Origin: a virus
Virus record (IMG/VR): IMGVR_UViG_3300034684_000440
Location: 1-38,668 of that record
Strand: one strand, 5' to 3'
Length of the DNA: 38,668 bases
Positions 447 through 33,186 of the stretch are shown here, in pieces. A model generated the notes under the pieces. That model saw only the letters and a program-made list of their open reading frames with translations. It made no database searches and was not told the origin of the DNA. A program made the translations under genes and the position numbers. Numbering within the stretch: the stretch's first letter is position 1; the number at the start of each line of letters is the position of its first letter.

Positions 447-2021
447 TTAAATCTCCATCCCATTGCGGAACATGAATCGGACATCCTTCTTGCCATGCAC
501 TGTTGCATGGTCGACCAGCGAGTACCAGAGCCCATCCGAGAATTCTGTCACCAAGCCTTCCATTTTCTTCAGTTCCTTGATGAACAGCTCTGTCTTGGTC
601 CTGCGGTACTGCCTGTCCAGTATTGCCTCATCCAAGGTGGCAAGCTCGTCCTTGCCCTTGACGTACCGTTGTGAAAGCCCTTCGAAACGGGCTCTGTAGT
701 TTTCCTGATCCATCACCCGCGAGGCATTCTCGGCTGTGAGCTGCTCCATCATCCTGACGATCTCGGCTCTCTCCTGTCTCAGCTTCGCCAGCTGGGTCTC
801 TTCCTCTGCGGTGCTGAACACATCATCGCGGATTTCCTCAAAGGTCTTGATGATCCCCTCCCTGTCGGTTATGAGCTTGTTCACCGCCTTGACGAACATG
901 ATCTTGATGTCTTCCTCCTCGACCATCGGGCCGTTGCAGGGACTGCCCTTGCTCCTGTACTTGTGGTTGCACTGCCACACGACCTTGCGGTACTTGTCGT
1001 TCGAATGCCATACCTTGGGACCATAGAAAGCCCCGCACGCCCCGCACCGGATGCGGTTCGAGAACAGGTGGTCGCGTTTTCCCGATTCCGCAAACTTGCT
1101 CCGGTTTGCAATCTCCCTCTGCACCAGGTCGAAGATTTCAGCCGGGATGATGGCTTCGTGGTTGCCCTGCACATAGTATTGGGGGACCTCGCCCTTGTTG
1201 ACCACCGCCCTCTTGGTGAGGAAGTCGGGGATGTAGTACTTCTGAAGCAGTGCATCCCCCTTGTACTTCTCGTTGGAGAGGATGCTGGCAATGGTTGAGT
1301 TGTGCCATCTGGTCTTTCCGCTGGTGGTCCTGATGCCTTCTGCGGTGAGCCTTGCTGCAATGCCGTTGAAACTCATGCCCTGAAGGAACAGCGTGTAGAT
1401 GTACCGTACCGTCTTCGCCTGCTCGGGATTCACCACCAGGTTCCCGTCCGGCCCCCTGTCATAGCCGAGGAAGCTGTTGAAGGGGACGGTGACCTGCCCG
1501 TCCGCAAAACGCTTGCGCCGTCCCCATTTCACGTTCTCCGATATGGAGCGCGATTCCTCCTGTGCAAGCGAACTCATGATGGTTATCAGCAGCTCCCCCT
1601 TGCTGTCAAACGTCCAAATACTTTCTTTCTCGAAATAGACTTCCACCTTGTTTTCCTTGAGGCTGCGGATGGTGGTGAGGCTGTCCACCGTGTTGCGTGC
1701 GAAGCGGCTGACGCTCTTGGTGACGATCAGGTCGATCTTGCCGGCAAGGGCGTCTGCGATCATCTGCTTGAACCCCTCGCGCCTTGCCGTGCTGGTGCCG
1801 CTGATGCCCTCGTCGGTGTAGATGCCGACGAACTCCCACTCCGCATTGGACTTGATCATGGTGGTGTAGTAGTCGACCTGCGCCTCATAGGAGGTGAACT
1901 GATCGTCCCTGTCGGTGGAGACGCGGGCGTAGCCTGCGACCTTCCTCCTTGGTCTGAACTGATCGGCTCCCTGTCCGGTTGAAAACTCCCGCACCGCCGG
2001 GATCACCCGTACCTCTCTCAT
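447..2021 (-). CDS. Large serine recombinase (second of a tandem pair)
   Basis: This 524-residue protein is a site-specific recombinase that would cut and rejoin attachment sites through a serine-DNA link. The resolvase domain fills roughly residues 28-175, with the catalytic serine at residue 35 in the motif YARVSTDR and the conserved SRFARNTVD helix. A recombinase domain follows, then a zinc ribbon (CGACG and a later Cys pair), then a long coiled-coil stretch rich in Glu, Arg and Gln, all typical of large serine integrases. The start codon overlaps the stop of the upstream recombinase as ATGA, so the two are probably co-translated. It is probably part of the prophage integration and excision machinery. 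The paired arrangement recalls elements that use two serine recombinases. Confidence 0.93.
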   Translation of the reverse strand: MREVRVIPAVREFSTGQGADQFRPRRKVAGYARVSTDRDDQFTSYEAQVDYYTTMIKSNAEWEFVGIYTDEGISGTSTARREGFKQMIADALAGKIDLIVTKSVSRFARNTVDSLTTIRSLKENKVEVYFEKESIWTFDSKGELLITIMSSLAQEESRSISENVKWGRRKRFADGQVTVPFNSFLGYDRGPDGNLVVNPEQAKTVRYIYTLFLQGMSFNGIAARLTAEGIRTTSGKTRWHNSTIASILSNEKYKGDALLQKYYIPDFLTKRAVVNKGEVPQYYVQGNHEAIIPAEIFDLVQREIANRSKFAESGKRDHLFSNRIRCGACGAFYGPKVWHSNDKYRKVVWQCNHKYRSKGSPCNGPMVEEEDIKIMFVKAVNKLITDREGIIKTFEEIRDDVFSTAEEETQLAKLRQERAEIVRMMEQLTAENASRVMDQENYRARFEGLSQRYVKGKDELATLDEAILDRQYRRTKTELFIKELKKMEGLVTEFSDGLWYSLVDHATVHGKKDVRFMFRNGMEI

Positions 2022-3364
2022 GCGTTCACTCCTTCACTGCTGTTCTCGTTCCGTCCTGCCATCTTCTCACACCTCAAGACCCATGCATCTTTTCTTGCCG
2101 TGCTCTTCCAAGGCGAACACAGGATGCCCCCTTCCTTGAGATGGAACTCAAGGCTCTGGGCATGGACTACGATACGGTCGACCAGAGCCTCAATCCATGC
2201 CGGGTCGAACTCTGCCTCCCCGCTGGAGCCGGCCAGGGGCCCCAGCGAGGAGCAGCAAGCCTGGCGCAGGGCGCGAAGCGGAAGGTTCTTTGCATTGCAT
2301 GCGTTAATCCCATTGTTTCTCTTGTTCGAGCACCGGTACTGGCCCTGCTGGTATTCGGTGAGAGCTTCCTTGTCGGTACCGGTGCCGGGCGTATAGGTAT
2401 AGGTTTGGCCACAAATACCGCATACCAGCTTGCCGGTGAAGCACGAGGATGCTCTCCATCTCACCGCACCGGATTTCCGCCTGCGTTCCCGCTCCGCTTC
2501 CACCCTCCGGTGAAGCTCCTCATCGATGATCGGGGGGTGCGTTCCCTCCACCACGAAGCGGGGAAGTTGGCCGCGGTTCATCTTTTTCCGGTGCGTGATG
2601 TGGCTTTCCACATAGGTGCGCTGGAGGATGCTGAAGCCTCGGTACTTCTCCTGGTCGAGGATCCTGAGGATGGATGACTTGCCGAAAGGCTGACCCTTCC
2701 GGTTGAGGATGCCGCGCTCAGCCAAGGCTTCGGAGATTTCTGTGAGCAGCATGCCGTCTGCGAACGCTTGATGCATGAAACGCACCGCCTTGGCTTCCTC
2801 CTCGATGATCTCGAAATGGTCATCGACCCACCGGTACCCGTAGATGTTGTAGGCGGGGAACTCCCCCTGCTCGAATCTCTTTCGTATGCCCCACTTCACG
2901 TTCTCGCTGATCGAGAGGCTCTCCTCCTGTGCGTAGGAGGCAAGGATGGAGAGCAGAAGCTCTCCGTCGGCTGAGAGCGAATCAAGGTTCTCTCGCTCGA
3001 AGCGCACCGAGACACCCAGATCCCTGAGTTTCCTGACCGTGTTCAGAAGGTCGACGGTATTGCGTGCGAAGCGGCTGATGGACTTGGTGAGGATGACATC
3101 GACCAGGCCTTTCCGGCAGTCTGCGATGAGCCGTTGGAACTCACTCCGCTTCTTTGTTCCGGTTCCCGAGATGCCCGCATCGGCATACACCCCGCTGTAC
3201 TCCCATGCCGGGTTCGCCTGGATGAGCATGCTGTAGTGGCTGACCTGGGCGGACAGGGATTCCATCAGTTCATCCGAGTCAACCGAGACGCGTGCATACG
3301 CCGCCACCCTCAATCTGGAGGGAAGGGTGGGGACGGCATGTTCAATCTTGGTTATCCTGGCCAT
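2018..3364 (-). CDS. Large serine recombinase (first of a tandem pair)
   Basis: This 448-residue serine recombinase has its catalytic serine at residue 27 in YARVSVDSD, the SRFARNTVD motif, a recombinase domain and a zinc ribbon starting CGICG. It lacks the long coiled coil of its neighbour, so it is shorter at the C-terminus. The start has a good ribosome binding site (AGGAG, 7 bases upstream). The two recombinases are clearly divergent in sequence, so this is not a recent duplication. They probably act together or on different substrates (integration versus excision). No attachment site core could be recognised because only one end of the element is in view. Confidence 0.92.
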   Translation of the reverse strand: MARITKIEHAVPTLPSRLRVAAYARVSVDSDELMESLSAQVSHYSMLIQANPAWEYSGVYADAGISGTGTKKRSEFQRLIADCRKGLVDVILTKSISRFARNTVDLLNTVRKLRDLGVSVRFERENLDSLSADGELLLSILASYAQEESLSISENVKWGIRKRFEQGEFPAYNIYGYRWVDDHFEIIEEEAKAVRFMHQAFADGMLLTEISEALAERGILNRKGQPFGKSSILRILDQEKYRGFSILQRTYVESHITHRKKMNRGQLPRFVVEGTHPPIIDEELHRRVEAERERRRKSGAVRWRASSCFTGKLVCGICGQTYTYTPGTGTDKEALTEYQQGQYRCSNKRNNGINACNAKNLPLRALRQACCSSLGPLAGSSGEAEFDPAWIEALVDRIVVHAQSLEFHLKEGGILCSPWKSTARKDAWVLRCEKMAGRNENSSEGVNA

Positions 3365-4789: not shown

Positions 4790-5869
4790 ATGGACATTCG
4801 TAACAAGCGTATCTGGCAGCAGGCATCCGGGGATACCGATAGGAACTATTCTGAACTTTGCTTGAAGTGGGGAGTGATACTCAACGGGCCCGGCTATGCC
4901 GGAAAATGGCCTGAGTGCCAGAATCTATTGCAGGATGAAGAATGGAGTGCGAGAAAGATTACCGATCTGAGAAGATTCTGCGAAACGATGCAAATAGGGG
5001 ATTTGGTGGTTTTGCGACTCGGGACAGCTTCCGTCTTAGCTGTAGGAGAAATCGCGGGAGAATATGAATGGCGGGAGGAATTTGGTGATGTCGATGGGTG
5101 GGATCTCCAACATTGCAGAAGAGTCCGTTGGTTATGGAAGGCTGCAGGGGACCCTGTGTCGTTTGAAACCTATGCCTTGAAATTTGGAGATACTACTCAG
5201 CTCCTTGATTCTCCCGAAGTAGAAGCATGGCTGGGTGCACTGGTTGTTCCTGACGAGGCGTTTCATGCCCCATTGCCGGAGATACCTCAAACGGAATTGC
5301 TTTCAAGAATTGATCTGGAGATGCGTGACATTTCGGAGTATTTGTACGACAAGGGGCTGTCCAGCGTGTCCATCAACAGACTGGTGGAAGATATCGGGGA
5401 GCTCACTCGGATTGCGAAATGGTACAAGAAGCAGGAAATGAGGCCCTCAGAGCATGAGACGGTAGCGTATCTGGTGATACCCTTGTTGAGATCACTGGGC
5501 TGGACCCCCCAGAAAATGGCGGTTGAGTGGAATCGTGTTGATGTGGCATTATTTGCGGATCTGCCAAGGGGAAATGATAATCTGACCGTTGTTGTGGAAG
5601 TGAAGAAACTCAACAACTCTTGTTTGATGGCAAAATCCCAGGCACAGGATTATGCTCTTGATAGGCCGAATTGCAGGCGGCTGATTGTGACGGATGGATT
5701 GCGTTATGGAGTCTACTCAAAGAATGAACTTGGGGATTTCTATCTTGACGCCTATCTGAATCTGACCAGGCTGCAAAGCATGTATCCAATTTATGACTGC
5801 GACGGTGCGATGGAATCTTTCCTATTGATGTCACCCGAGAGTAATTTTAAGAATGGGAGCAAGTCATAA
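4790..5869 (+). CDS. Predicted modification-sensing restriction nuclease (EVE/PUA-like + PD-(D/E)xK)
   Basis: A 359-residue protein with two parts. Residues about 7-118 look like an EVE/PUA-type base-reading domain: WQQASGD near the start, then GDLVVLRLG and the block DVDGWDLQHCRRVRWL. Residues about 200-330 resemble the N-terminal nuclease domain of type I restriction subunits, with the PD-(D/E)xK pattern formed by Asp251 (DVALF), Glu270 and Lys272 (VVVEVKK). The combination suggests cleavage of DNA carrying modified bases (type IV-like). It is transcribed from its own promoter against the direction of the phage late genes. The start at 4790 has AAGGAAGGGG just upstream. Function is inferred from domain logic; no biochemical fact is visible here. 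Confidence 0.7.
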   Translation: MDIRNKRIWQQASGDTDRNYSELCLKWGVILNGPGYAGKWPECQNLLQDEEWSARKITDLRRFCETMQIGDLVVLRLGTASVLAVGEIAGEYEWREEFGDVDGWDLQHCRRVRWLWKAAGDPVSFETYALKFGDTTQLLDSPEVEAWLGALVVPDEAFHAPLPEIPQTELLSRIDLEMRDISEYLYDKGLSSVSINRLVEDIGELTRIAKWYKKQEMRPSEHETVAYLVIPLLRSLGWTPQKMAVEWNRVDVALFADLPRGNDNLTVVVEVKKLNNSCLMAKSQAQDYALDRPNCRRLIVTDGLRYGVYSKNELGDFYLDAYLNLTRLQSMYPIYDCDGAMESFLLMSPESNFKNGSKS

Positions 5870-5986
5870 TTCTTTTCTCAATGCAGATTACGGCCTTTAC
5901 TTAAGGATGGTACAGAATGAGATTGCATTTATCAAATTTGCAATTGAATTTGCTGTATCAAATCTTGCAGATAGGGGGTGAATTGC

Positions 5987-6688
5987 ATGATGGTGATAGA
6001 CACAACTTTCGATTTCTATACAGATGCAACCAGCAAGGATCCCGATAACACCAGCCCCACTTTGCGAAGGTATCACAAGCTGTTGTGGAGCAAGGCCCTC
6101 CCCAACGGGAGGATGTTTGAATTGCGGGACGATGTGAGCGGTGCCTATTTGTACCATGCATCTGATCTTGGAGAGTTTTTCCTGGGAAGTGATGCTATCA
6201 CACATTCCTATAAAAATCAGGATCGAAAACAATGGCTGGTGCAACAGATTCCCGACGAGGTGGATGCATTATTCAAGGCTGGATCAACTATCGGGGCATA
6301 CATCCTATTTCCCAACAGGCGGATTGATGGCAAGCAAACAATCAACCAGGCACGAGGTGTCAACCGCCTCATCGATGATCGGTTTGATTTGACCTTGGAA
6401 TGCATTCGCCGTTTCTATTTAGGTATCGACAGCCCGCTGTACCAGACACTTCAATGGTACAAAGATTTCTTTGATCTGTTTCAGGATTTCACCGGATATG
6501 TCCACTTCTTCCTGTTGGAGGACTTGGTGGATGGAGATGGCAATATTAAGTTCCATATGCCGTTCGATGGATTTGCGTCTCCACCTGCATTTTCAGATAT
6601 TGGCGATTATCTGGCATACAAGCGGCAAGTTATGACATTCATTGAATCAAGAAACAGAAGGATTTCTGAAATCACCCAATCTACATGA
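5987..6688 (+). CDS. DUF6994-like protein
   Basis: A 233-residue soluble protein beginning MMVIDTTFDF, followed by SPTLRRYHKLLWSK and GEFFLGSDAITHS, which I recognise as the DUF6994 pattern, a family with no known function. GGGGGTG lies 6 bases upstream of the ATG at 5987. It is on the plus strand like the restriction gene before it and separated from it by 117 bases, so the two could be co-transcribed accessory genes. Its stop overlaps the 3' end of the convergent radical SAM gene by 8 bases. Confidence 0.65.
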   Translation: MMVIDTTFDFYTDATSKDPDNTSPTLRRYHKLLWSKALPNGRMFELRDDVSGAYLYHASDLGEFFLGSDAITHSYKNQDRKQWLVQQIPDEVDALFKAGSTIGAYILFPNRRIDGKQTINQARGVNRLIDDRFDLTLECIRRFYLGIDSPLYQTLQWYKDFFDLFQDFTGYVHFFLLEDLVDGDGNIKFHMPFDGFASPPAFSDIGDYLAYKRQVMTFIESRNRRISEITQST

Positions 6689-7937
6689 TCCCATGCCGGT
6701 TCCCTTTCTCCCTGGCCTCAACAGCCCAGTTGATCGGCTCCAGCCCCTCAAGCCGGTTGTACTCGTCCCAGTACCTTCTGGCCCACTTTACCAGCAGCTT
6801 GGTTATCTCACAGATGTAGGTTGTCCGGCGGAACTCGCCGAACTCGGAGTAGCAGCCCCCGATACAGTATGAGCAGGCGCTCTCCACCTCGCATGTCCTG
6901 CACTTCTCATCAAGTGAGCAATTGGAACGGTAGGCACCCTCGCGTACCTTCAGGAAGTTTTCCTTGTGCGTGAATCCCTCCTTTGCTGTTCCGACGATGA
7001 AACCTGCCTTGTCGACCTGGGTGTGGGGCAGCCATCTGATGCACGGGTAGATCCCCCCGTCCACCGAGAGGGCGGGCATGGCCCCGCTTCCGCAGTGGCC
7101 GGTACAGTCCCAATCGGGCCCTGTGGAGAGGTGTGCGTAGCCGAACTGCTCCTTGCTGAGCATGCTCCAGAACAGGTCGCCGCGGTGCTCAAGCACATAG
7201 GCGGTGCACTTCTCCATCTGACGGTCCAGTTCCTCATAATCGGCTTGGGTGCACCCGGTGTCCTCCATGATGAAGTTCTGGTTGATGTACCGGATTCCCA
7301 GCTGTTCATGCAGATACACCAGCGAGTCGTACAGGTAGGGGATGCTCTGGCGGTTTGCGGTGGACTTGGTCTGCATCGACTGGATCGGGAAGGTCTTCTT
7401 ATACCACGGCCAGTGGCGAATGATGCTCTGCATCGAACCGGACCCATCGGGGAACACCCGGTTTGCATCATGGATGGCGGGACAGCCGTCCAGTGATACG
7501 CCCACCAAGAGCATGTCCTTGTACTTCTCGCAGAACCGGCGGGCTTGTTCGGAGAAGAGCGTGCCGTTGGTGGAGATCGAGAAATGGAGCTTTCCCCGCC
7601 AGTTTTTGGCATTGGGGGTGTCGGTGGTCATCATCTTTGCAAGGGTGTAGGAACAGATCTCATCCAGGAACGGCACGTCCATGAAGCTGTCGCCGCCGAT
7701 GAAGTCGACGACCAGCCCCTTTTGGTAGGCCTTGCGGAACACGGGGTCCGGATCATCCAGCAATCCCGCAGGATCGGGATCGGACAGGATGTGGTCGATG
7801 AAGGCCCTGGCATCCGCCATCGAGAGGGTCCTCCTTCTCTTGTGCACCTCGTAGCAGTAGGTGCACCTGAGGTTGCAGTCCTCGGTGGTGTTCAGCGTAA
7901 CGTTGAACAGGCCGGGTTCACGAAAGGGAACAAGCAT
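6681..7937 (-). CDS. Radical SAM/SPASM peptide-maturase-like enzyme
   Basis: A 418-residue enzyme of the radical S-adenosylmethionine superfamily. The [4Fe-4S] motif CNLRCTYC uses Cys21, Cys25 and Cys28. The C-terminal SPASM region has Cys278, 282 and 299, then Cys340, 346, 349, 355, 358, 362 and 376, enough for two auxiliary clusters. Related enzymes install thioether or other crosslinks on ribosomal peptides or oxidise sulfatase active sites. The gene starts one base after the stop of the Cys-rich gene (junction TGACATG), with GGAGG 5 bases upstream; an in-frame extension to 8135 is an artefact because it overlaps the Cys-rich gene. The adjacent Cys-repeat protein is the obvious substrate. 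Its place at the end of the tail operon implies late expression. Confidence 0.9.
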   Translation of the reverse strand: MLVPFREPGLFNVTLNTTEDCNLRCTYCYEVHKRRRTLSMADARAFIDHILSDPDPAGLLDDPDPVFRKAYQKGLVVDFIGGDSFMDVPFLDEICSYTLAKMMTTDTPNAKNWRGKLHFSISTNGTLFSEQARRFCEKYKDMLLVGVSLDGCPAIHDANRVFPDGSGSMQSIIRHWPWYKKTFPIQSMQTKSTANRQSIPYLYDSLVYLHEQLGIRYINQNFIMEDTGCTQADYEELDRQMEKCTAYVLEHRGDLFWSMLSKEQFGYAHLSTGPDWDCTGHCGSGAMPALSVDGGIYPCIRWLPHTQVDKAGFIVGTAKEGFTHKENFLKVREGAYRSNCSLDEKCRTCEVESACSYCIGGCYSEFGEFRRTTYICEITKLLVKWARRYWDEYNRLEGLEPINWAVEAREKGNRHGIM

Positions 7938-7938
7938 G

Positions 7939-8586
7939 TCAGCCTCCGATGCGGGAAGAGTTCGAACAGCCGCTCGAGCAGGAGTTCCTGCAAGCGCCCG
8001 AGCAGTTGACGTTGCAGCTTGCGTTGCAGTTGGTGCTGCAGGAGGTGCATCCCGAGCACGCACTTTGGCAGTTCCCGGAGCATCCGCCGCAGCCGCGGCA
8101 GCCTCCGCAACCGGTGCACCCGTGGCATGAAACACACCAAAGTCCCCCCTTGCAGCTGTAGCAGTTGCCCGAGCAGCCGCTGCAGCCCGTACAGCCGCTG
8201 CACCCGGTGCAGGAGCCGGTACACCCCCCGGTGCAGTTGTGGCAGCCGTTGTAGCAGGTGGAGGTGCAGGTGTTGCTGCAGTTGGCGCAGCCGCGCAGGT
8301 CGGTGATGTCCTGCCTGTACTGGTCGATTTGGCTCAGCAGGCTTGCGCTGAGCAGGCTGCCGGCGGCGACCGATGCGATGGGGTAGGTGGTGTACAGAAG
8401 AGAATGCGTGTTGTTCTGCAGCGCATCCTTCATTGAGTTCATGTCCGCCGCCCTCATGGGAAGGCCGATTGCGAAACCGGAGGGAGGGGAGAACACATAG
8501 TAGTTGTCGTAGCGCTGGTAGCCGCCCGTGCGGAAGGCCTCCTGGATCGCCTCGAAGCGGCTGCGAATATCGTTGTAGGTTCCCAT
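7939..8586 (-). CDS. Cysteine-repeat protein, probable radical SAM substrate
   Basis: A 215-residue protein. Residues 1-95 are an ordinary soluble or virion-type domain (N-terminus MGTYNDIRSRFEAIQEAF). Residues 100-207 contain 31 cysteines separated by two or three small residues (Gly, Ser, Thr, Asn), for example GCTGCSGCSGNC, and the chain ends CSNSSRIGG. The ATG at 8586 overlaps the preceding stop as TGATG and has GAGGG upstream; a GTG one codon earlier is less likely. Repeated Cys with a dedicated radical SAM neighbour is the pattern of ribosomal peptides with thioether crosslinks, such as the CXXX-repeat peptide families. Alternatives are a metal-binding or disulfide-stabilised tail component. 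The substrate role is inferred from context. Confidence 0.85.
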   Translation of the reverse strand: MGTYNDIRSRFEAIQEAFRTGGYQRYDNYYVFSPPSGFAIGLPMRAADMNSMKDALQNNTHSLLYTTYPIASVAAGSLLSASLLSQIDQYRQDITDLRGCANCSNTCTSTCYNGCHNCTGGCTGSCTGCSGCTGCSGCSGNCYSCKGGLWCVSCHGCTGCGGCRGCGGCSGNCQSACSGCTSCSTNCNASCNVNCSGACRNSCSSGCSNSSRIGG

Positions 8587-8900
8587 CACACACCCTCATG
8601 GATATAGCACTCGCCGTTGATCACCAACAGCTCCCCTTCGGGATAGCCGTAATGGCTGCGGACCCTTTTCTCCCAGGTGGCGTACAGGAACCTTCCCTCG
8701 GCCATCTCGTCGAAGACCGCCTTGAAGTAGGCGTAGATGTCCCTGTCCTGCCCGAACCGATAGGATGCGTACACGTCAGCCTTCAGGGCGGTCTGTGCTG
8801 TGTTCATCTTGTCGACCGCCAGCTGCATGTCGGCGATCTCGCCGTCATCAAGCATGAAGGGCAGCCTGGTCAGCTGCCTTCCGCATTCATTGCATTGCAT
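8586..8900 (-). CDS. Small CxxC protein of the Cys-repeat cassette
   Basis: A 104-residue acidic protein starting MQCNECGRQL, a CxxC pair that could bind zinc, followed by a mostly helical body and ending ECYIHEGV. The start at 8900 has GGAGG 7 bases upstream, and it begins 11 bases after the tail fiber stop. It is translationally coupled to the Cys-repeat gene through a TGATG overlap. I do not recognise the family. It could be a tail component, a chaperone or a peptide-recognition partner for the radical SAM enzyme. Confidence 0.75.
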   Translation of the reverse strand: MQCNECGRQLTRLPFMLDDGEIADMQLAVDKMNTAQTALKADVYASYRFGQDRDIYAYFKAVFDEMAEGRFLYATWEKRVRSHYGYPEGELLVINGECYIHEGV

Positions 8901-8911
8901 TCTTGAACCTC

Positions 8912-11900
8912 CTAGTTCCATACGGCCCCCCACACCTTGTTGGCGGTGCCCTGTGCATTCACGTTCCCGTTCAGGTTCCCCGTCACGTTGCCGGTGACGT
9001 TGCCCTCCACGCCCCCCTGCAGGTTCCCGTGGAAGGTGTCTGCATGGACATTCGCATAGGGCTTCGTGGAGACGCCGATGTCGTACCGGCCTGAGTCCTG
9101 GGGGTACAGGCTCTTGGTGTACGCCCCCTTGGCCTCGGCGATCACGGTGAAGGAGATCGAGAGGGCCGAGAAGAGGTCGTTGCTGCGGATGCGCGAGACC
9201 GCGCCCGCTATGCTGGTGATGGTCAGGCTGGTTCCCGACCAGCTCACGATCGCGGGATCCGCCGCCGGTGCATCGGTGCTGTTGTAGATGCGGCTCCAGG
9301 CGATCGAGATGCTCTGGAACATGTCGAACGCCCCGGCTGCAACCTGAACGCCCGCCTTGAAGATGCCCGCGAACTTGTAGGCAAGCGATCCGGCAAGGGC
9401 TGAGAGATCGGTCCCGTCGAAGATGAAGGAGCCTGCATACCAGTCCCTTGCCGTGGTATGGCTGCTGATCCTGCCCCCTTCGCCGTCAAGCAGGTTCACG
9501 CCCACGTCGTAGGCGCCGAGGCTGTAGGAAGCCGTCAGCGTACCGGCCGTATGGGAGGTGGGGCTTGCCGCTTCAAGGGTGAGCGCGCTGAGGTAGCCCG
9601 CGCTGTCGACGGCGTAGAACACCCGCTCCAGCGTGGTTCCCGCCGAGGCGGGGTTGGCCCCCGAATCCGCATACACCGCGCTTCCCGTCTTGGTGGGGGT
9701 GTATCCCAGCGAGCGCTTGGACCAGGTGAGCCCCCCGTCGCCCGAGGCATAATAGTAGGGGGTGGAATGCTCGTAGGCGATGAAGAAGCCCGAGCCCCAG
9801 GCGATGCCGCTTGGGCAGGTGCTTGCGATGGTGATGGCGCTCCAGGTCTGCCCGTCGGTGCTCCGCCATACCGATGCCGAGGAAAGGGTGACGTAGCTGA
9901 CCTGGATGTAGACGCCGTTCCCGTAGGCGATCCTTGAGTTCATGAAGTCGTTGCTGTAGCTGGGGAAGGGATGGGCGCAGGTGAAGGGCGCGGCAGTCCA
10001 GCCGGTGCCGTTCGCCGAGCGCTTCCAGTCCGAAGCCCCGCCGCCCTGCACGTGGGCATGGAAGTAGCCGTTTGCAAAGAAGAGGTTGTCGTAGGCCTCG
10101 CTTGAGAGCTCGCTCCAGGAGGTGCCGTTCGCCCCTCCCGAGAGCACGCGCTTCTGCACCGTCCCCGCGCAGATGGCGAGGAAGATGCCGTTTCCGAACG
10201 CAAGGCCCAGGGTGGAGGGATAGGTGGAGCTCAGCTCGTATTTCGCAGCAGCCGGTGCGTTGCCTATGGGCATCGAGTAGAGGCTGTAGCCGCAGGCCGC
10301 CACCATGCGCCCGTTGCCGGAAGCCATGTGGGGCGTGGTGCCGAATGTGGATGCGACGCCCGCTACACGAGCCATAACCGCAGAGCCCGGATCCAGGAGC
10401 GTGCCGTCCAGGACCTGGCGCAGCTTCACCGTCCTGGCCTTGACGGTAGCCCAGTCGAGGCTGCGGCTCTCATAGTCGGTCCAGCCCGCGCCCCCGTCCA
10501 GGGAGTACTGCTTCTTGCCCGAAACCTGCGCTCCTGTAGAGCTGATCCCGGCCAGGCAGTTGGTGCCTGCGAGCTTCATCGCTGATTGCGTGCATGCGGG
10601 CAGGGCGGGAACGGTGAAGGCGGTGCCGGCATTTGCTGTGGTGACCTCCGCCGAGAGGAGGCTGCGGTCCTTGTCGCGCTCGGCAAGGCTTGCCACATGC
10701 AGCACGTTCGAAAAGGTGGTGGATACGGAGCCGCCCTCGACCTTGGCTGCCGTGAACGAGCCGCCCTTGTGCACCACCGCATTTGCAGCAATGCGGCCGA
10801 TGAGGTCTCCCATCACACTCCCCAGGTCCCAGTAGGGGGTGGGGGACAGGCTTCCGGTGAAGGTGTCGCCCGAGCGCTGCTCGTTGACGGTGCGGAGCAC
10901 GTCGGCGTCCAGGCGCTCGATGCGCGTCTCGGAGAGGTCGGCGTTGCGGATGACCGTGCCGACGAACTCGCTGGTGCCGTCGCTGTTGATGATGAAGCCC
11001 GAGCTGCCGTCCCCGATGGCCGTCTTGCCCATCGAGCGGATGCGCCCCTCTCCGAAGATCTGCAGGTCGCGCGTGGAGATCACCTCGATGTTCGCGCTCT
11101 GCGCGTACAGGCTTCGGTAGTATGCATACAGGGCCGTGGAGGTGGAGGGGATGTCGGCCCCATGCAGGAGCACCGCGTTGCCGCATTTGCTCATCGCCTC
11201 GGGGTGGGCCGGCGCATTCTGATCGGTGACCGGAACCCACACCCCGCCCTCGTACACCTGGGGTATGTAGTCGGACCCCTGCCTCAGTACATAGCAGTCC
11301 CCCTCGATCGCGTCGGTGATGGTCGAAGGCCCGTCCAGGATGCCGTAGCTTTTGGCGTACTCGGTCGCGTCGGTCGAGGTGAGGGTGAGGGAGCGGGTGA
11401 TGCTCTCCTGGATCGCCAGGCGCCAATAGGTCATGGTGCAGGTGACGTCGATGAGCGGGGGCGCCTGCTTCTTGGGGACGGTGAGGATCACCTGGTCCCC
11501 TGCATGCCCCACGCCGTTGACCAGCCACAGGTATGAGGGCTGGCCGTATCCGCGGCTGTCCGCGGTGAGGACCAGAAGCGAGCTCTCGACGCTGCGCTCG
11601 TTGCGCTCGTAGGTGCTGCGGTTCGCACGGGCCGTGAAGGACAGCGAGTTGAGCAGCAGGGTGTGCGCACCATGGTCGGGGAACGGATTGCCGTAGGTGA
11701 TGTGGGGGTTGGCCGCGGTGGAATCGCTCCAGGTGTACTCGGTGCGCGTCCAGTACATCAGCCCGTAGACCCAGGGCACGGGAAGCGAATAGACCCATAC
11801 GGTGGAGGCGTCGGGAAGCATGTCCTCCCTGATCAGGGTGTACTGGGTCCGGGGGCTCGCAGTCAGGCCGTCGCTTCCCGGAACCCCGTCGGCGCCCTTG

Positions 11901-12229
11901 GGGCCCGTCTCCCCGTACGAGACGAAGGAGGCGGCCAAGAGCTCGGTCTTGGCCGAATCGGTGTACACCTGCACATCGAATGCCGAGGCCGAGCTGTAGC
12001 TGTAGGTTCGCACCCCGCCGGTCATCGTCCCGCCGGCCCCGCTTGGCGCCCAGGTTGAGCCGTCCCAGCTTCTTGCCTGCACATGCACGGAGGCGGTGTG
12101 CAGGGCCCCGTTCTTGTACAAACCGATGTCCAGGACGCCCCGGGGGGAGCCTGTCATCGACAGCTGCAGCTGGTAGGAGGGGGCGTCGCTGAGCGAGGTG
12201 AGTGTGTAGCTTGCACTGGTGAACGGCAT
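8912..12229 (-). CDS. Large tail fiber/adhesin with Asp-box repeats
   Basis: A 1105-residue tail protein likely to contact the host surface. Residues about 106-121 are collagen-like (GETGPKGADGVPGSDG). Residues about 634-840 hold repeated units of the type GNG(V/I)(Y/F), then S-x-D-G-x-T-W, for example STDGQTW and SGDGGLTW; these are Asp-box motifs of sialidase-like beta propellers. The C-terminus has short GN(V/L) repeats (VEGNVTGNVTGNLNGNVN) before the end AVWN. The start has AAGGAG 5 bases upstream. It lies downstream of the hub and Ig-like genes and directly upstream of the Cys-repeat cassette. Enzymatic activity is not implied: Asp-boxes are structural. Confidence 0.85.
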   Translation of the reverse strand: MPFTSASYTLTSLSDAPSYQLQLSMTGSPRGVLDIGLYKNGALHTASVHVQARSWDGSTWAPSGAGGTMTGGVRTYSYSSASAFDVQVYTDSAKTELLAASFVSYGETGPKGADGVPGSDGLTASPRTQYTLIREDMLPDASTVWVYSLPVPWVYGLMYWTRTEYTWSDSTAANPHITYGNPFPDHGAHTLLLNSLSFTARANRSTYERNERSVESSLLVLTADSRGYGQPSYLWLVNGVGHAGDQVILTVPKKQAPPLIDVTCTMTYWRLAIQESITRSLTLTSTDATEYAKSYGILDGPSTITDAIEGDCYVLRQGSDYIPQVYEGGVWVPVTDQNAPAHPEAMSKCGNAVLLHGADIPSTSTALYAYYRSLYAQSANIEVISTRDLQIFGEGRIRSMGKTAIGDGSSGFIINSDGTSEFVGTVIRNADLSETRIERLDADVLRTVNEQRSGDTFTGSLSPTPYWDLGSVMGDLIGRIAANAVVHKGGSFTAAKVEGGSVSTTFSNVLHVASLAERDKDRSLLSAEVTTANAGTAFTVPALPACTQSAMKLAGTNCLAGISSTGAQVSGKKQYSLDGGAGWTDYESRSLDWATVKARTVKLRQVLDGTLLDPGSAVMARVAGVASTFGTTPHMASGNGRMVAACGYSLYSMPIGNAPAAAKYELSSTYPSTLGLAFGNGIFLAICAGTVQKRVLSGGANGTSWSELSSEAYDNLFFANGYFHAHVQGGGASDWKRSANGTGWTAAPFTCAHPFPSYSNDFMNSRIAYGNGVYIQVSYVTLSSASVWRSTDGQTWSAITIASTCPSGIAWGSGFFIAYEHSTPYYYASGDGGLTWSKRSLGYTPTKTGSAVYADSGANPASAGTTLERVFYAVDSAGYLSALTLEAASPTSHTAGTLTASYSLGAYDVGVNLLDGEGGRISSHTTARDWYAGSFIFDGTDLSALAGSLAYKFAGIFKAGVQVAAGAFDMFQSISIAWSRIYNSTDAPAADPAIVSWSGTSLTITSIAGAVSRIRSNDLFSALSISFTVIAEAKGAYTKSLYPQDSGRYDIGVSTKPYANVHADTFHGNLQGGVEGNVTGNVTGNLNGNVNAQGTANKVWGAVWN

Positions 12230-12244
12230 GGTATCTCCTTGTGT

Positions 12245-13291
12245 TCAGCTGACCGAACAGAAATAGGTGGCCTTCACCGTCACATCGTCGTGCGAGACGG
12301 ATATGGCCTTCTTGCGGGTTGCGGTGATCGAGCCGTGGGCCACCGCCGTGGGGGTGAACGCCACCGCCGTCCCGTCCTTGTCGGTCTTGGTCCAGGTGTA
12401 GGTGAGGCTGACCCCGGTCCCGTCGATTTCCTCGCCGTTCTGGTAGACGCGGCAGATGAGGGTGGTGCTTCCCGTGTTGTTCTTGAAGTAGCTTCCCGCG
12501 GTGGACTCGATGACCGCCTGGTAGGGGTCGGTGACGTCCAGGATCGAGACGGCCTCGGTGTCGTAGCTCTTGTTGTAGGTGTCCGATGTGGCGTCGGTGT
12601 CCAGGATCGAGCACTTGAACATGGCGAACGAGTCCACCATCGAGGCCGTCACGGCCAGCGTGGCAGAGGTGCCGGATGCAACGTTCTCCCAGACGGTCCC
12701 GTTGATGGATTTCTTCCACTGGTGGGAGAGGTTGGTCGTATCCTGGGTCGTGCCGCGGATGAGCTCGGCCTTGAGCGACAGGGAGGAAGGGCTGTGGTTC
12801 TTGAACTGGCTGCCCCCGGTTGCATAGGCGCGCGCGACCACGAACGAGGTGCCGTTCGCAACCCGGGAGAGGGTGATGACGATCTCCACGGGAAAGGCGA
12901 GGCCCAGCACGGCATCGGTGTAGGTGCCGCTGAACTGGTAGTCGATCTGCCACACGTCGGCGGTGAGCTTGTCCTCGCTCACCGTGAGGACCCCGGTGGT
13001 CGCGTTGATCGTCTCCCCGTTTGAGCCCGATGCCACGGCCGTCCAGGCGGTCGCCCCTGCGATGCGTCGCTTCCAGGCCTTGGCGGTCATGGTGGAGACC
13101 ACGTCGGAAGCGCCGGCCTTGCGCACCACGGGGGTGAGCTGCAGCGAGGTGGTTCCCGCCCACGAGGGGTTGAGGGTCTGGTTGGATGTATCGTACAGGC
13201 TGGTGAGGGGCAGGTTGCTGTCGATGCCGGTGATGAGGGATATGCCGTCGGTATAATCCATCAGGGTGAAACTGGCGCTTGTCTTTGCCAT
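12245..13291 (-). CDS. Tail protein with Ig-like domains
   Basis: A 348-residue beta-rich protein made of Ig-like modules, shown by repeated patterns such as TTLICRVYQNGEEI, LTYTWTK and a terminal ATYFCSV. Its last module resembles the C-terminal module of the preceding gene product (TTL-CRVY-N-EEI). It is probably an adhesion or fiber subunit on the tail tip. The start at 13291 has AGGAG 8 bases upstream. Confidence 0.8.
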   Translation of the reverse strand: MAKTSASFTLMDYTDGISLITGIDSNLPLTSLYDTSNQTLNPSWAGTTSLQLTPVVRKAGASDVVSTMTAKAWKRRIAGATAWTAVASGSNGETINATTGVLTVSEDKLTADVWQIDYQFSGTYTDAVLGLAFPVEIVITLSRVANGTSFVVARAYATGGSQFKNHSPSSLSLKAELIRGTTQDTTNLSHQWKKSINGTVWENVASGTSATLAVTASMVDSFAMFKCSILDTDATSDTYNKSYDTEAVSILDVTDPYQAVIESTAGSYFKNNTGSTTLICRVYQNGEEIDGTGVSLTYTWTKTDKDGTAVAFTPTAVAHGSITATRKKAISVSHDDVTVKATYFCSVS

Positions 13292-30467: not shown

Positions 30468-30769
30468 GTGTTCTCTCCCTTGCCGCCGAGCAGCGACAGG
30501 AAGTACTCGTCCATTTTCGCTTCCTGCTGTTCGCTCTCGCCGTTGATCTCATGGGTCCTCAGCGACTTGAAGATGACCTTGTCGTTCTCCAGTGCCATGA
30601 CCAGACCCACCTGGACCCTGGTGATGGTGGTCTTGATCTCCCTCAGGTCCTTCGCATAGCCGAGGCGGTCGTCGCTCCGCTTCGCCATGCGGTTGAGCAG
30701 CCATAATACGACGCCCCCCGACCCGAACAGGCACACCGAGATCGTTGCGGCCAGGGTGATCTCATCCAT
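30464..30769 (-). CDS. Small membrane protein, lysis-cassette member
   Basis: A 101-residue protein with one N-terminal membrane segment (LAATISVCLFGSGGVVLWLL) and a soluble, probably helical remainder ending LLGGKGENT. It could be a holin accessory or antiholin. The start at 30769 has GGAGG 6 bases upstream and lies inside the end of the methylase gene (8-base overlap). I do not recognise a family. Confidence 0.6.
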   Translation of the reverse strand: MDEITLAATISVCLFGSGGVVLWLLNRMAKRSDDRLGYAKDLREIKTTITRVQVGLVMALENDKVIFKSLRTHEINGESEQQEAKMDEYFLSLLGGKGENT

Positions 30770-32009
30770 CCTGTGCCTCCGATGGGCAGACTTCCCCGTA
30801 GGAGTAGTCCAACCCGTCGCGCTGGACGGTCACCCCTGCTGAGGATCCGACAAGCTCGATGTAGCGCCTGACGATCACATCGCAGTACTTCTCGTCCAGC
30901 TCGATGGTGCAGCATGACCGCTCGGTCTGCTCGCAGGCGACCAGGGTGCTGCCGCTGCCGCCGAAAGGATCGAGCACCAGCGTGTTGCTCATCGACGAGT
31001 TCATGATCGGGTAGGCCAGGAGGGCCACCGGCTTCATGGTAGGGTGGTCACCGTTCTTCCTGGGCTTGTCGAATTCCCAGATGGTCGATTCCTTGCGCCC
31101 GGTGTACCACAGGTGCTTGCCCTTCTTCTTCCATCCGAAGAGCACCGGCTCGTGCTGCCACTGGTAGGGCGAGCGGCCGAGCACCAGCGACTGCTTCTTC
31201 CAGATGCAGGTGCCCGACAGGTAGAAACCCGCCTCGCTGAAGGCCCTGCGGAAGTTCAGACCCTCGGTGTCTGCATGGAACACATAGATGGATGCGTCGT
31301 CGGCCATATGCTCTGCAGTATTGGTGAAGGCATCGAGCAGGAACTGCAAAAAGGCATCATTGCCCATATTGTCGTTCTTGATCTTGCCGGCCGAGCCCTC
31401 GTAGTTGACGTTGTACGGCGGATCGGTGACCACCAGGTTCGCCTTGGAGCCCGCCATCAAGAGCTCGAATGTCTCGGCCTTGGTGCTGTCGCCGCACACC
31501 AGCCGGTGCCTTCCCAGCTTCCACAGGTCCCCGCTCTTGGTGATTGCGGGCTTCTCGAGCTCCGCTTCCACGTCGAAGTCGTCGTCATGCACGCCCTCGG
31601 CAAGCGAGTCCTTGAACAGGTCGTCGATCTCGGCCGGGTCGAAGCCGGTCAGCGAGACGTCGAAGTCCTGCCCCTGCAGCTCGGTGATGAGAAGGGCCAG
31701 CTTGTCCTTGTCCCATTCGCCGCTGATCTTGTTCATGGCGATGTTGAGGGCCTTCTCCTTGTCGGTGTCCAATTCGACGAGGATGCAGTCCTCCTCCTCG
31801 ACTCCCATATCCTTGAGTACGTTCAGCCTCTGGTGGCCCGAGATGACGGTATTGTTGTTTGCTGCGTTGACCACGATGAGCTCGACGTAGCCGAATTGCT
31901 CCAGTGATCGCTTCAGCTTCTCATACTCGGGATCCCCGCTCTTGAGGGCCTTGCGCGGGTTGTATTTCGCCGGATTCAGATCCGACAGTCGCATCTTCTG
32001 TATTCTCAT
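30762..32009 (-). CDS. ParB-domain DNA methyltransferase fusion
   Basis: A 415-residue protein. Residues about 5-105 are a ParB/Srx-type domain (NPRKALKSGDPEYEKL, then VISGHQRLNVLKDMGV). Residues about 160-395 are an amino-methyltransferase domain with catalytic DPPY at 196-199, HPTMKP at 322-327 and the SAM-binding DPFGGSG at 347-353, the beta-type order. It would methylate adenine or cytosine amino groups in phage DNA. It lies 13 bases after metK, which supplies the methyl donor. The start has GAGAGG 9 bases upstream. Confidence 0.92.
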   Translation of the reverse strand: MRIQKMRLSDLNPAKYNPRKALKSGDPEYEKLKRSLEQFGYVELIVVNAANNNTVISGHQRLNVLKDMGVEEEDCILVELDTDKEKALNIAMNKISGEWDKDKLALLITELQGQDFDVSLTGFDPAEIDDLFKDSLAEGVHDDDFDVEAELEKPAITKSGDLWKLGRHRLVCGDSTKAETFELLMAGSKANLVVTDPPYNVNYEGSAGKIKNDNMGNDAFLQFLLDAFTNTAEHMADDASIYVFHADTEGLNFRRAFSEAGFYLSGTCIWKKQSLVLGRSPYQWQHEPVLFGWKKKGKHLWYTGRKESTIWEFDKPRKNGDHPTMKPVALLAYPIMNSSMSNTLVLDPFGGSGSTLVACEQTERSCCTIELDEKYCDVIVRRYIELVGSSAGVTVQRDGLDYSYGEVCPSEAQDG

Positions 32010-32022
32010 GGTGTGTTTCCTC

Positions 32023-33186
32023 TCAGTTGCGGATTCCCAGTTCTTTCTTGAGCGCCTCTATATACCGTTCACTCACCTGTTCCCATGCAAACAGCGCATT
32101 GCCGAAATGGCCGTAGCAGGAGGTGAGGTTGTAGATCGGGCTGCGAAGCCCCAGCTCCTCGATGATGTCCTTCGGCTTGAGGCTGAAAACACTGCGCACA
32201 GCCTTTGCAAGCCTGCCGTCATCAACCTTTCCGGTTGCGAAGGTGTGTACATCGACGGCCACAGGCTCGGCCTTCCCGATGGCGTACGAGATTGCAACGC
32301 CGCAGCGCTTGGCAAGGCCGGCCGCCACGATGTTCTTTGCGATCATGCGCGCCATGTAGGCTCCGCTGCGGTCCACCTTGGTCGCATCCTTGCCGCTGAA
32401 GGCGCCCCCGCCGTGCAGGGCCAATCCTCCGTAGGTGTCCACCATGATCTTGCGCCCGGTCAGGCCGGTGTCGGCGGCAGGCCCGCCCTCGACGAAACGG
32501 CCCGAGGGATTGATGAGGATCCGGGTATCCGCATCGAGGGGAAAGTGGATGAAGGCAGGCCCGAGCACCTTCCCGATGATCTCGGCCTTGAGGCTGTCCA
32601 GGTTCTTGTCGCGGTCATGCTGGACCGAGACGATGACGGCGGCAACCCTGACGGGCTTGCCGTCCTCGTACTCGACCGACACCTGTGCCTTGCCGTCGCT
32701 GCGGATGCCCATGATGGTGCCGTTCTTGCGGCACTTGTCCAGGATGCTGCAGATGCGGTGGGAGAGCTCAAGCGGCAGCGGGATGGCGGCGGGGGTCTCG
32801 TCGGTTGCATACCCGTACACCGTACCCTGGTCCCCGGCTCCCAGCTCATCGCATCTGCCGTCGGCATCCCTGACCTCCAGGGCGGTGTCGACGCCGCCTG
32901 CGATGTCCGCACTCTGGTTGTGCAGGAACACGCTGATCGTGAATTCCTTGGGATCGTAGCCGCACTCGGCGAGGGCTGTTCGCACCGTCCGGCGCACGTT
33001 GATCCTGCTTCGGCTGGTTATCTCCCCTGCTACGATGATCCGGCCCTTGGTCGCCATGACCTCGCAGGCCACGCGCGAATATGCATCGCTGCTCAAACAG
33101 GCATCGAGGATCGAGTCGGCGATGTAGTCGCACAGCTTGTCGGGATGCCCCTGGCAGACACTCTCTGATGTGAGGTGGTTCTTCAT
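32023..33186 (-). CDS. metK: S-adenosylmethionine synthetase
   Basis: A 387-residue methionine adenosyltransferase, making SAM from methionine and ATP. Signatures are GHPDK with His14, GAGDQG at 116-121 and GGGAFSGKD at 259-267; length matches bacterial MetK. A complete housekeeping-type enzyme inside a phage late operon, next to a methylase, suggests it raises SAM supply during infection. AAAGGA lies 8 bases before the start. Confidence 0.95.
   Translation of the reverse strand: MKNHLTSESVCQGHPDKLCDYIADSILDACLSSDAYSRVACEVMATKGRIIVAGEITSRSRINVRRTVRTALAECGYDPKEFTISVFLHNQSADIAGGVDTALEVRDADGRCDELGAGDQGTVYGYATDETPAAIPLPLELSHRICSILDKCRKNGTIMGIRSDGKAQVSVEYEDGKPVRVAAVIVSVQHDRDKNLDSLKAEIIGKVLGPAFIHFPLDADTRILINPSGRFVEGGPAADTGLTGRKIMVDTYGGLALHGGGAFSGKDATKVDRSGAYMARMIAKNIVAAGLAKRCGVAISYAIGKAEPVAVDVHTFATGKVDDGRLAKAVRSVFSLKPKDIIEELGLRSPIYNLTSCYGHFGNALFAWEQVSERYIEALKKELGIRN

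Follow-up and report, generated by a model that had tools for sequence, protein, structure and literature searches.

A tail-linked phage cassette joining a cysteine-repeat protein to a radical SAM/SPASM enzyme

Does a cysteine-repeat protein encoded behind the tail genes of a phage serve as the substrate of the radical S-adenosylmethionine (SAM)/SPASM enzyme encoded next to it, and does the product become part of the tail? The question is raised by the IMG/VR virus record IMGVR_UViG_3300034684_000440, of which positions 1 to 38,668 were analyzed (38,668 nucleotides, hereafter the window). Three genes on the minus strand make up the cassette. P0003 (8586..8900, start at 8900) encodes a small protein of 104 amino acids (aa) with an N-terminal CxxC, P0001 (7939..8589, stop at 7941-7939) the cysteine-repeat protein of 216 aa, which is the probable substrate, and P0002 (6681..7937, ATG at 7937 and end at 6681) the radical SAM/SPASM enzyme of 418 aa, the probable maturase of P0001. 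P0003 and P0001 meet in GTGATG, where the P0003 stop codon (8588-8586) overlaps the P0001 start, either GTG at 8589 or ATG at 8586, and one base separates the P0001 stop from the ATG of P0002. The coordinates, gene sizes, cysteine count (31), and junctions given in a first-pass annotation, made from the sequence alone, were all correct when the open reading frames (ORFs) were read again. The cassette is tail-linked and is carried by a Sphaerochaeta-type (spirochaete) prophage. It is read here as belonging to a tail-linked phage branch of CXXX-repeat maturation that would make a cross-linked fibre or tip element, with a rough probability of 0.55 that allows for partial correlation between the parts of this reading.

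P0002 carries the CxxxCxxC motif of radical SAM enzymes (C21, C25, and C28) and the C-terminal SPASM cysteines of the peptide maturases, in a cysteine-rich SPASM half. Ten cysteines, C21, C25, C28, C282, C299, C346, C349, C355, C358, and C376, are invariant in eight distant enzymes from phages and bacteria. Among 18,950 NCBIfam models, the best match was TIGR04115, the CXXX-repeat radical SAM maturase, with 232 bits (cut-off 350), followed by the PapB-type model NF047865 with 125.7 bits (cut-off 340). The Pfam model Radical_SAM was matched above its cut-off and phrog_1802 with an E-value of 1.7e-38, and the closest solved structure by sequence was the SCIFF maturase CteB (5wgg), with an E-value of 1.5e-16 over residues 14-380.

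TIGR04115 was the best model for all main enzymes tested, with PapB second in most, and its cut-off was exceeded by the enzymes of the loci L051, L060, L078, and L083 with 388, 455, 352, and 434 bits, respectively. The first-pass annotation had likened the cassette to CXXX-repeat target families, a comparison that is thus right in kind. In the tree, a supported branch (97/94) sets the phage enzymes and the bacterial TIGR04115 enzymes together apart from other peptide maturases. The group with the window is joined to the long-branched enzymes of jumbo phages (95/94), and the other phage group (98/95) stands beside the bacterial enzymes with weak support (85/71). Together with the TIGR04115 scores, this placement indicates that the phage enzymes are probably old and diverse, the window being a member of the part outside the NCBI cut-off.

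P0001 consists of a cysteine-free N-terminal part, about 100 residues long, and a core in which 31 cysteines lie at residues 101-208, spaced by 3 (15 times), 4 (14 times), and 6 (once). All 31 of these cysteines are invariant in seven Sphaerochaeta-type prophage copies. Ratios of nonsynonymous to synonymous substitution rates (dN/dS) were calculated by the Nei-Gojobori method for each copy against the window copy. They ranged from 0.06 to 0.08 for the whole P0001 gene, from 0.11 to 0.18 for its N-terminal part, and from 0.013 to 0.036 for the cysteine core, at a dS of about 0.75-1.3 in the core; the ratios of P0002 were 0.04-0.08. Because the cysteines are invariant in the seven copies and the core ratios are this low, the array is not a product of chance. 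No match to P0001 was found among the NCBIfam models at an E-value of 1, hence none to TIGR04114, 04117, or 04118, and neither the full protein nor its N-terminal part matched PHROG or Pfam families.

Within the host order, the cassette was present at high identity in 9 of 139 genomes, following the same 1105-aa ORF that precedes it in the window. Two of these nine copies lie on contigs longer than 3.5 Mb and one is degraded by stop codons. Degraded copies were seen in L210 and L211, as an enzyme remnant with two stops in genome G509 and, in G400, a fragment of the enzyme lying near tape-measure pieces, which suggests decaying prophages.

Beyond this order, enzymes of the window type (46-53% identity) occurred on viral contigs of 42-285 kb from gut, rumen, and other large phages, as well as in an Oscillospiraceae prophage. 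Counting all loci with window-type enzymes, a cysteine-repeat gene lay close by in L001, L002, L005-L007, L009-L013, L026, and L027, with 92 cysteines in L005 (489 aa), 34 in L006, 31 in L013, 73 in L026, and 46 in L027. The gene order of the window, small CxxC protein, cysteine protein, and enzyme, is repeated exactly in L005 and L006; it is also found in L026 and L027, but there the small proteins are shorter and without CxxC. In L004, a 195-kb viral contig, the cysteine gene lies at the far end of the same contig and runs off it, with 111 cysteines in 589 aa. An intein-like stretch splits the CxxxCxxC motif of the window-type radical SAM gene on this contig (7410-9455) while keeping the frame; the sequence reads CNLRCKY ... 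VLVHN and then CYE, and the first insert residue is an unusual Asp.

A reverse scan, in which DNA was matched to a pattern of three C-[ST]-G-x units, returned at least 120 viral stretches. Among the matches listed, 42 stretches held a mechanically cysteine-rich ORF, and most of these, when read individually, proved to lie antisense or in a wrong frame or to be simple repeats within larger genes. Each cysteine-repeat ORF judged convincing among the matches listed adjoins an enzyme of the family (L048, L051, L060, L075, L078, L083, L113, L114, and L160) or belongs to a truncated jumbo-phage locus (L057 and L161). As the ORFs were sorted by eye after the scan and L060 and L114 are apparently near-copies, the scan counts as supporting evidence and not as a blind test. 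The enzyme of L017, used alone as a query against viral contigs, gave no matches.

In giant phages of Erwinia, Cronobacter, and Salmonella (SPN3US/CR5/phiEaH2 type), which were reached by tblastn with P0002, two cysteine-repeat ORFs and two radical SAM genes are flanked by virion structural genes on one side and the tail assembly chaperone on the other. Both cysteine ORFs were present in 12 of the 12 jumbo loci retrieved with the main enzyme, which are related to one another and so represent one or two lineages rather than 12. The eight loci retrieved that hold other radical SAM genes (<30% identity) were all without a cysteine-repeat ORF. The first cysteine ORF of four Erwinia-type phages had a dN/dS of 0.05-0.11 in its own frame, whereas both alternative frames gave values above 1. 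In SPN3US (L024; NC_027402, reverse strand), the cysteine-repeat ORFs, whose cores are poor in lysine and arginine, lie at 6100-6492, 6503-6907, and 6923-7129, the third being a short copy with only four cysteines; the first is unannotated and the second is overlapped by gp166, which is called in another frame. The jumbo-phage cysteine-repeat protein corresponds to phrog_6085. The first-pass annotation had staked its model of a system on the linkage of the two genes elsewhere. They stay linked across distant phages, and they almost certainly form a system in which P0001 is, judging from these sequences, very probably the substrate of P0002.

The kind of bond may be read from the repeats. Across the phage set, 743 of the 954 neighbouring cysteine pairs were of the CXXX type (spacing 4), against 113 of spacing 3, and serine or threonine, glycine, and glycine, serine, or threonine prevailed at the three x positions of the CxxxC units. 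An aspartate or glutamate, the acidic acceptor of PapB targets, stood at the third x position in only 40 of the 743 units. A thioether is the favoured bond, with better than even odds, and because the acidic acceptor is so rare, the acceptor would be glycine, serine, threonine, or asparagine, or a so far unknown cysteine-to-cysteine arrangement. In the proposed mechanism, P0002 would bind the N-terminal domain of P0001, probably helped by P0003, and would work along the C-[ST]-G-x repeats of the core, joining cysteine sulphurs to nearby residues with a loss of 2 Da per bond. The product would be a long, stiff, protease-resistant rod rich in cysteine, glycine, serine, and threonine, anchored on the tail by its other domain as a fibre or tip element that contacts the host surface. 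The variation in repeat number, from 12 to more than 100 cysteines across cassettes, may be likened to that of fibre repeats. The other domain may come first or, as in L051, L075, and L113, last, a variation that argues against a cleaved leader and for a lasting anchor.

The link to the tail is drawn from gene context. On the minus strand of the window, the late genes comprise terminase, portal, and tail tube, then a tape-measure-like protein with tail proteins, then a tail-fibre-like ORF of 1105 aa (8912..12229, minus strand, with a TAG stop at 8914-8912), and after it P0003, P0001, and P0002. The gap between this ORF and P0003 is 11 bases and contains AGGAGG. The ORF had no PHROG or Pfam match of its own and is called tail-like because it follows the tail proteins at 15110-12245 and precedes the cassette. 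Of these tail proteins, the one at 12245..13291 (minus strand) matched the tail protein family phrog_3267 with an E-value of 5.5e-57. The 1105-aa ORF is kept at the equal place in L208 and L209, and the cassettes end the late operon in the Sphaerochaeta prophages. The proposal that the pair always follows a tail gene holds in part: tail or baseplate genes adjoin the pair or lie near it in the window, L005, L013, L051, L113, the SPN3US-type phages, and a clostridial variant (L206), and the flanks fetched for L006, L027, and L048 contained no recognized tail gene. From this context, the product is somewhat more probably than not a part of the tail.

In the clostridial prophage of L206 (G356:C26, 5597-10924), a radical SAM gene stands directly after a Prophage_tail endopeptidase gene and is followed by a 142-aa protein with CxC clusters. 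It is perhaps a parallel tail-linked system with a different cysteine pattern, and its place in the tree is unsure owing to a long branch. In the Sphaerochaeta search set, L212 (7932-9386) and L213 (1258-2712) hold a 112-aa protein with 18 cysteines in CKTGCKSGC repeats, adjoining a 371-aa radical SAM gene. This pair belongs to a small element in which integrase-like genes lie nearby and no tail genes are evident.

Several results weigh against a cross-linked tail element of the CXXX-repeat kind. The three cassettes with no tail gene in their fetched flanks count here, as does the score of P0002, which falls short of the TIGR04115 cut-off. The N-terminal domains of the cysteine proteins matched no known tail family in PHROGs and Pfam, and the AlphaFold2 model of P0001, built from 12 relatives, had a mean predicted local distance difference test (pLDDT) score of 37.5, which is uninformative, and was not used. 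The order of L051, L075, and L113, with cysteine repeats first, also leaves no simple cleaved leader.

The alternatives, taken in order of falling probability, differ in what becomes of P0001. It may be a secreted or lysis-released peptide, a bacteriocin or toxin carried as a moron that merely stands beside the tail genes. Most characterized radical SAM peptide systems do yield small bioactive peptides, the bacterial CXXX cassette of L018 adjoins tatA/tatC-like genes, and the end of the late operon, where the Sphaerochaeta cassettes stand, would suit such a moron. However, the cassette showed no gene for an exporter, a peptidase, or immunity, so that the toxin option of the first-pass annotation finds no support there; the core reaches 92-111 cysteines in large phages, which is more fibre- than peptide-like, and two copies are retained by obligately lytic jumbo phages, with virion genes on one side and the tail chaperone on the other. 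This explanation is unlikely. A real modification whose product is displayed on the infected cell or lysogen instead of the virion, for instance as a receptor block or surface adhesin, is regarded as decidedly unlikely: a late-operon position beside tail genes is no proof of virion assembly and the cassettes of L006, L027, and L048 would fit it, but a signal peptide or anchor is not evident in P0001 and the lytic jumbo phages keep the cysteine protein among baseplate genes.

It is similarly improbable that P0001 is left unmodified as a metal-binding, iron-sulphur-binding, or disulphide-rich protein and that P0002 acts on another target. The very high cysteine content and the CxxC and CxxxC spacings would fit metal binding, whereas the two genes are strictly paired across very different phages, P0002 matches a family whose definition rests on such targets, and the C-[ST]-G-x repeats are without the charged residues common in metallothioneins. 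That the cysteine-repeat ORF is a low-complexity or wrong-frame artefact was suggested by the frequent antisense and wrong-frame pattern matches elsewhere and by the other frame annotated in databases for SPN3US. This reading is refuted by the selection tests, with a core dN/dS of 0.013-0.036 at fully invariant cysteines in the prophages and values below 0.12 in the cysteine frame alone in jumbo phages, and its probability is negligible.

P0003 may reasonably be guessed to assist the maturase. Its AlphaFold2 model had a mean pLDDT of 90.4 and comprises a strand, two long helices, and a hairpin. Counterparts stand at the equal position in L005 and L006 (25-32% identity), and shorter ones in L026 and L027 (14-20%). 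In the NCBIfam profile search, P0003 did not match TIGR04116, and its counterparts in L078 and L026 did so weakly, with 17 and 14.3 bits, respectively (cut-off 50). A profile of the P0003 group aligned with bacterial TIGR04116 members collinearly over the whole length, with a probability of 9% that is far from significant. Membership of P0003 in TIGR04116 was rejected as unproven on these weak scores and this alignment. Foldseek searches with the P0003 model gave no match below an E-value of 0.001 in viral or Protein Data Bank (PDB) libraries; three phage proteins of 89-94 aa with template modelling (TM) scores of 0.62-0.69 are possible counterparts.

Elsewhere in the window, two adjacent large serine recombinase genes (524 and 448 aa) occupy 447-3364 on the minus strand at the prophage end. 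Between them and the cassette, two genes on the opposite strand (4790-6688, plus strand) encode a 359-aa protein without a Pfam match and a 236-aa DUF6994 protein; the pair is possibly cargo that differs between related prophages. A complete SAM synthetase gene lies at 32023-33186 (minus strand) and adjoins an N6/N4 DNA methylase gene (30762-32009). It is kept in L001 and L002, the records of the two Sphaerochaeta relatives tested (91% identity), and was considered as a supplier for P0002. It was dropped as a part of the system because it is not convincingly present in other cassette carriers and adjoins the methylase gene.

It is also proposed, tentatively and at slightly less than even odds, that several tailed-phage groups, unrelated to one another, build a tail part from a cysteine-repeat protein made into a covalently cross-linked rod by a radical SAM enzyme of the phage. 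Should this hold, radical SAM peptide chemistry, which is known mainly from small peptides and cofactors, would also build long structural elements of phages, and tests could use phages that many laboratories already grow. In well-studied giant phages, two conserved genes have been overlooked, as the cysteine-rich frame was not called, and existing virion mass data may therefore hold the answer. Virion mass spectrometry of SPN3US, which used a protein database generated locally, gave gp168-170, encoded just upstream of the cysteine ORFs, as candidates for baseplate or tail-fibre proteins (PMC5694885). Given that database and the absence or wrong frame of the cysteine ORFs in the deposited annotation, these ORFs may never have been searched for. 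The arrays of 12 to more than 100 cysteines would, in addition, be a natural series for studying one enzyme along a repetitive substrate.

Comparison with known systems places the cassette near several of them. No paper on phage CXXX-repeat or cysteine-repeat radical SAM systems, nor any describing a radical SAM-matured structural protein of virions, was found in the open-access literature, with subscription journals and preprints outside the scope, and two reviews of jumbo phages do not use the term radical SAM. Among PHROG families, phrog_6085 is without function and phrog_1802 is a phage radical SAM protein, neither being described as part of a system. The PapB-type ranthipeptide maturases (NF047865) share the radical SAM/SPASM layout of P0002, and the PapB family and SCIFF maturases form thioethers from cysteine; however, the acidic acceptor of the CX3D/E motif in PapB targets is nearly absent from the phage cysteine repeats (40/743). 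CteB, the closest structure, has an N-terminal extension and acts on a short six-cysteine peptide, whereas P0002 starts at the radical SAM domain and has a partner with 31 cysteines. The closest likeness is to the bacterial CXXX-repeat systems predicted by NCBI (TIGR04114-04119), with which the cassette shares a cysteine-repeat target, a radical SAM/SPASM enzyme best matched by TIGR04115, and a small, putatively accessory protein. In contrast to these, the target in the window has its own domain (about 100 aa), CXX takes the place of CXXX in half of its spacings, and the cassette stands in a phage tail operon without Tat genes. The second maturase domain, TIGR04119, is present in bacterial L018 and was not found beside the window cassette. 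Judged by these sequence features, the cassette is a variant related to the CXXX-repeat systems and not a strict member of them.

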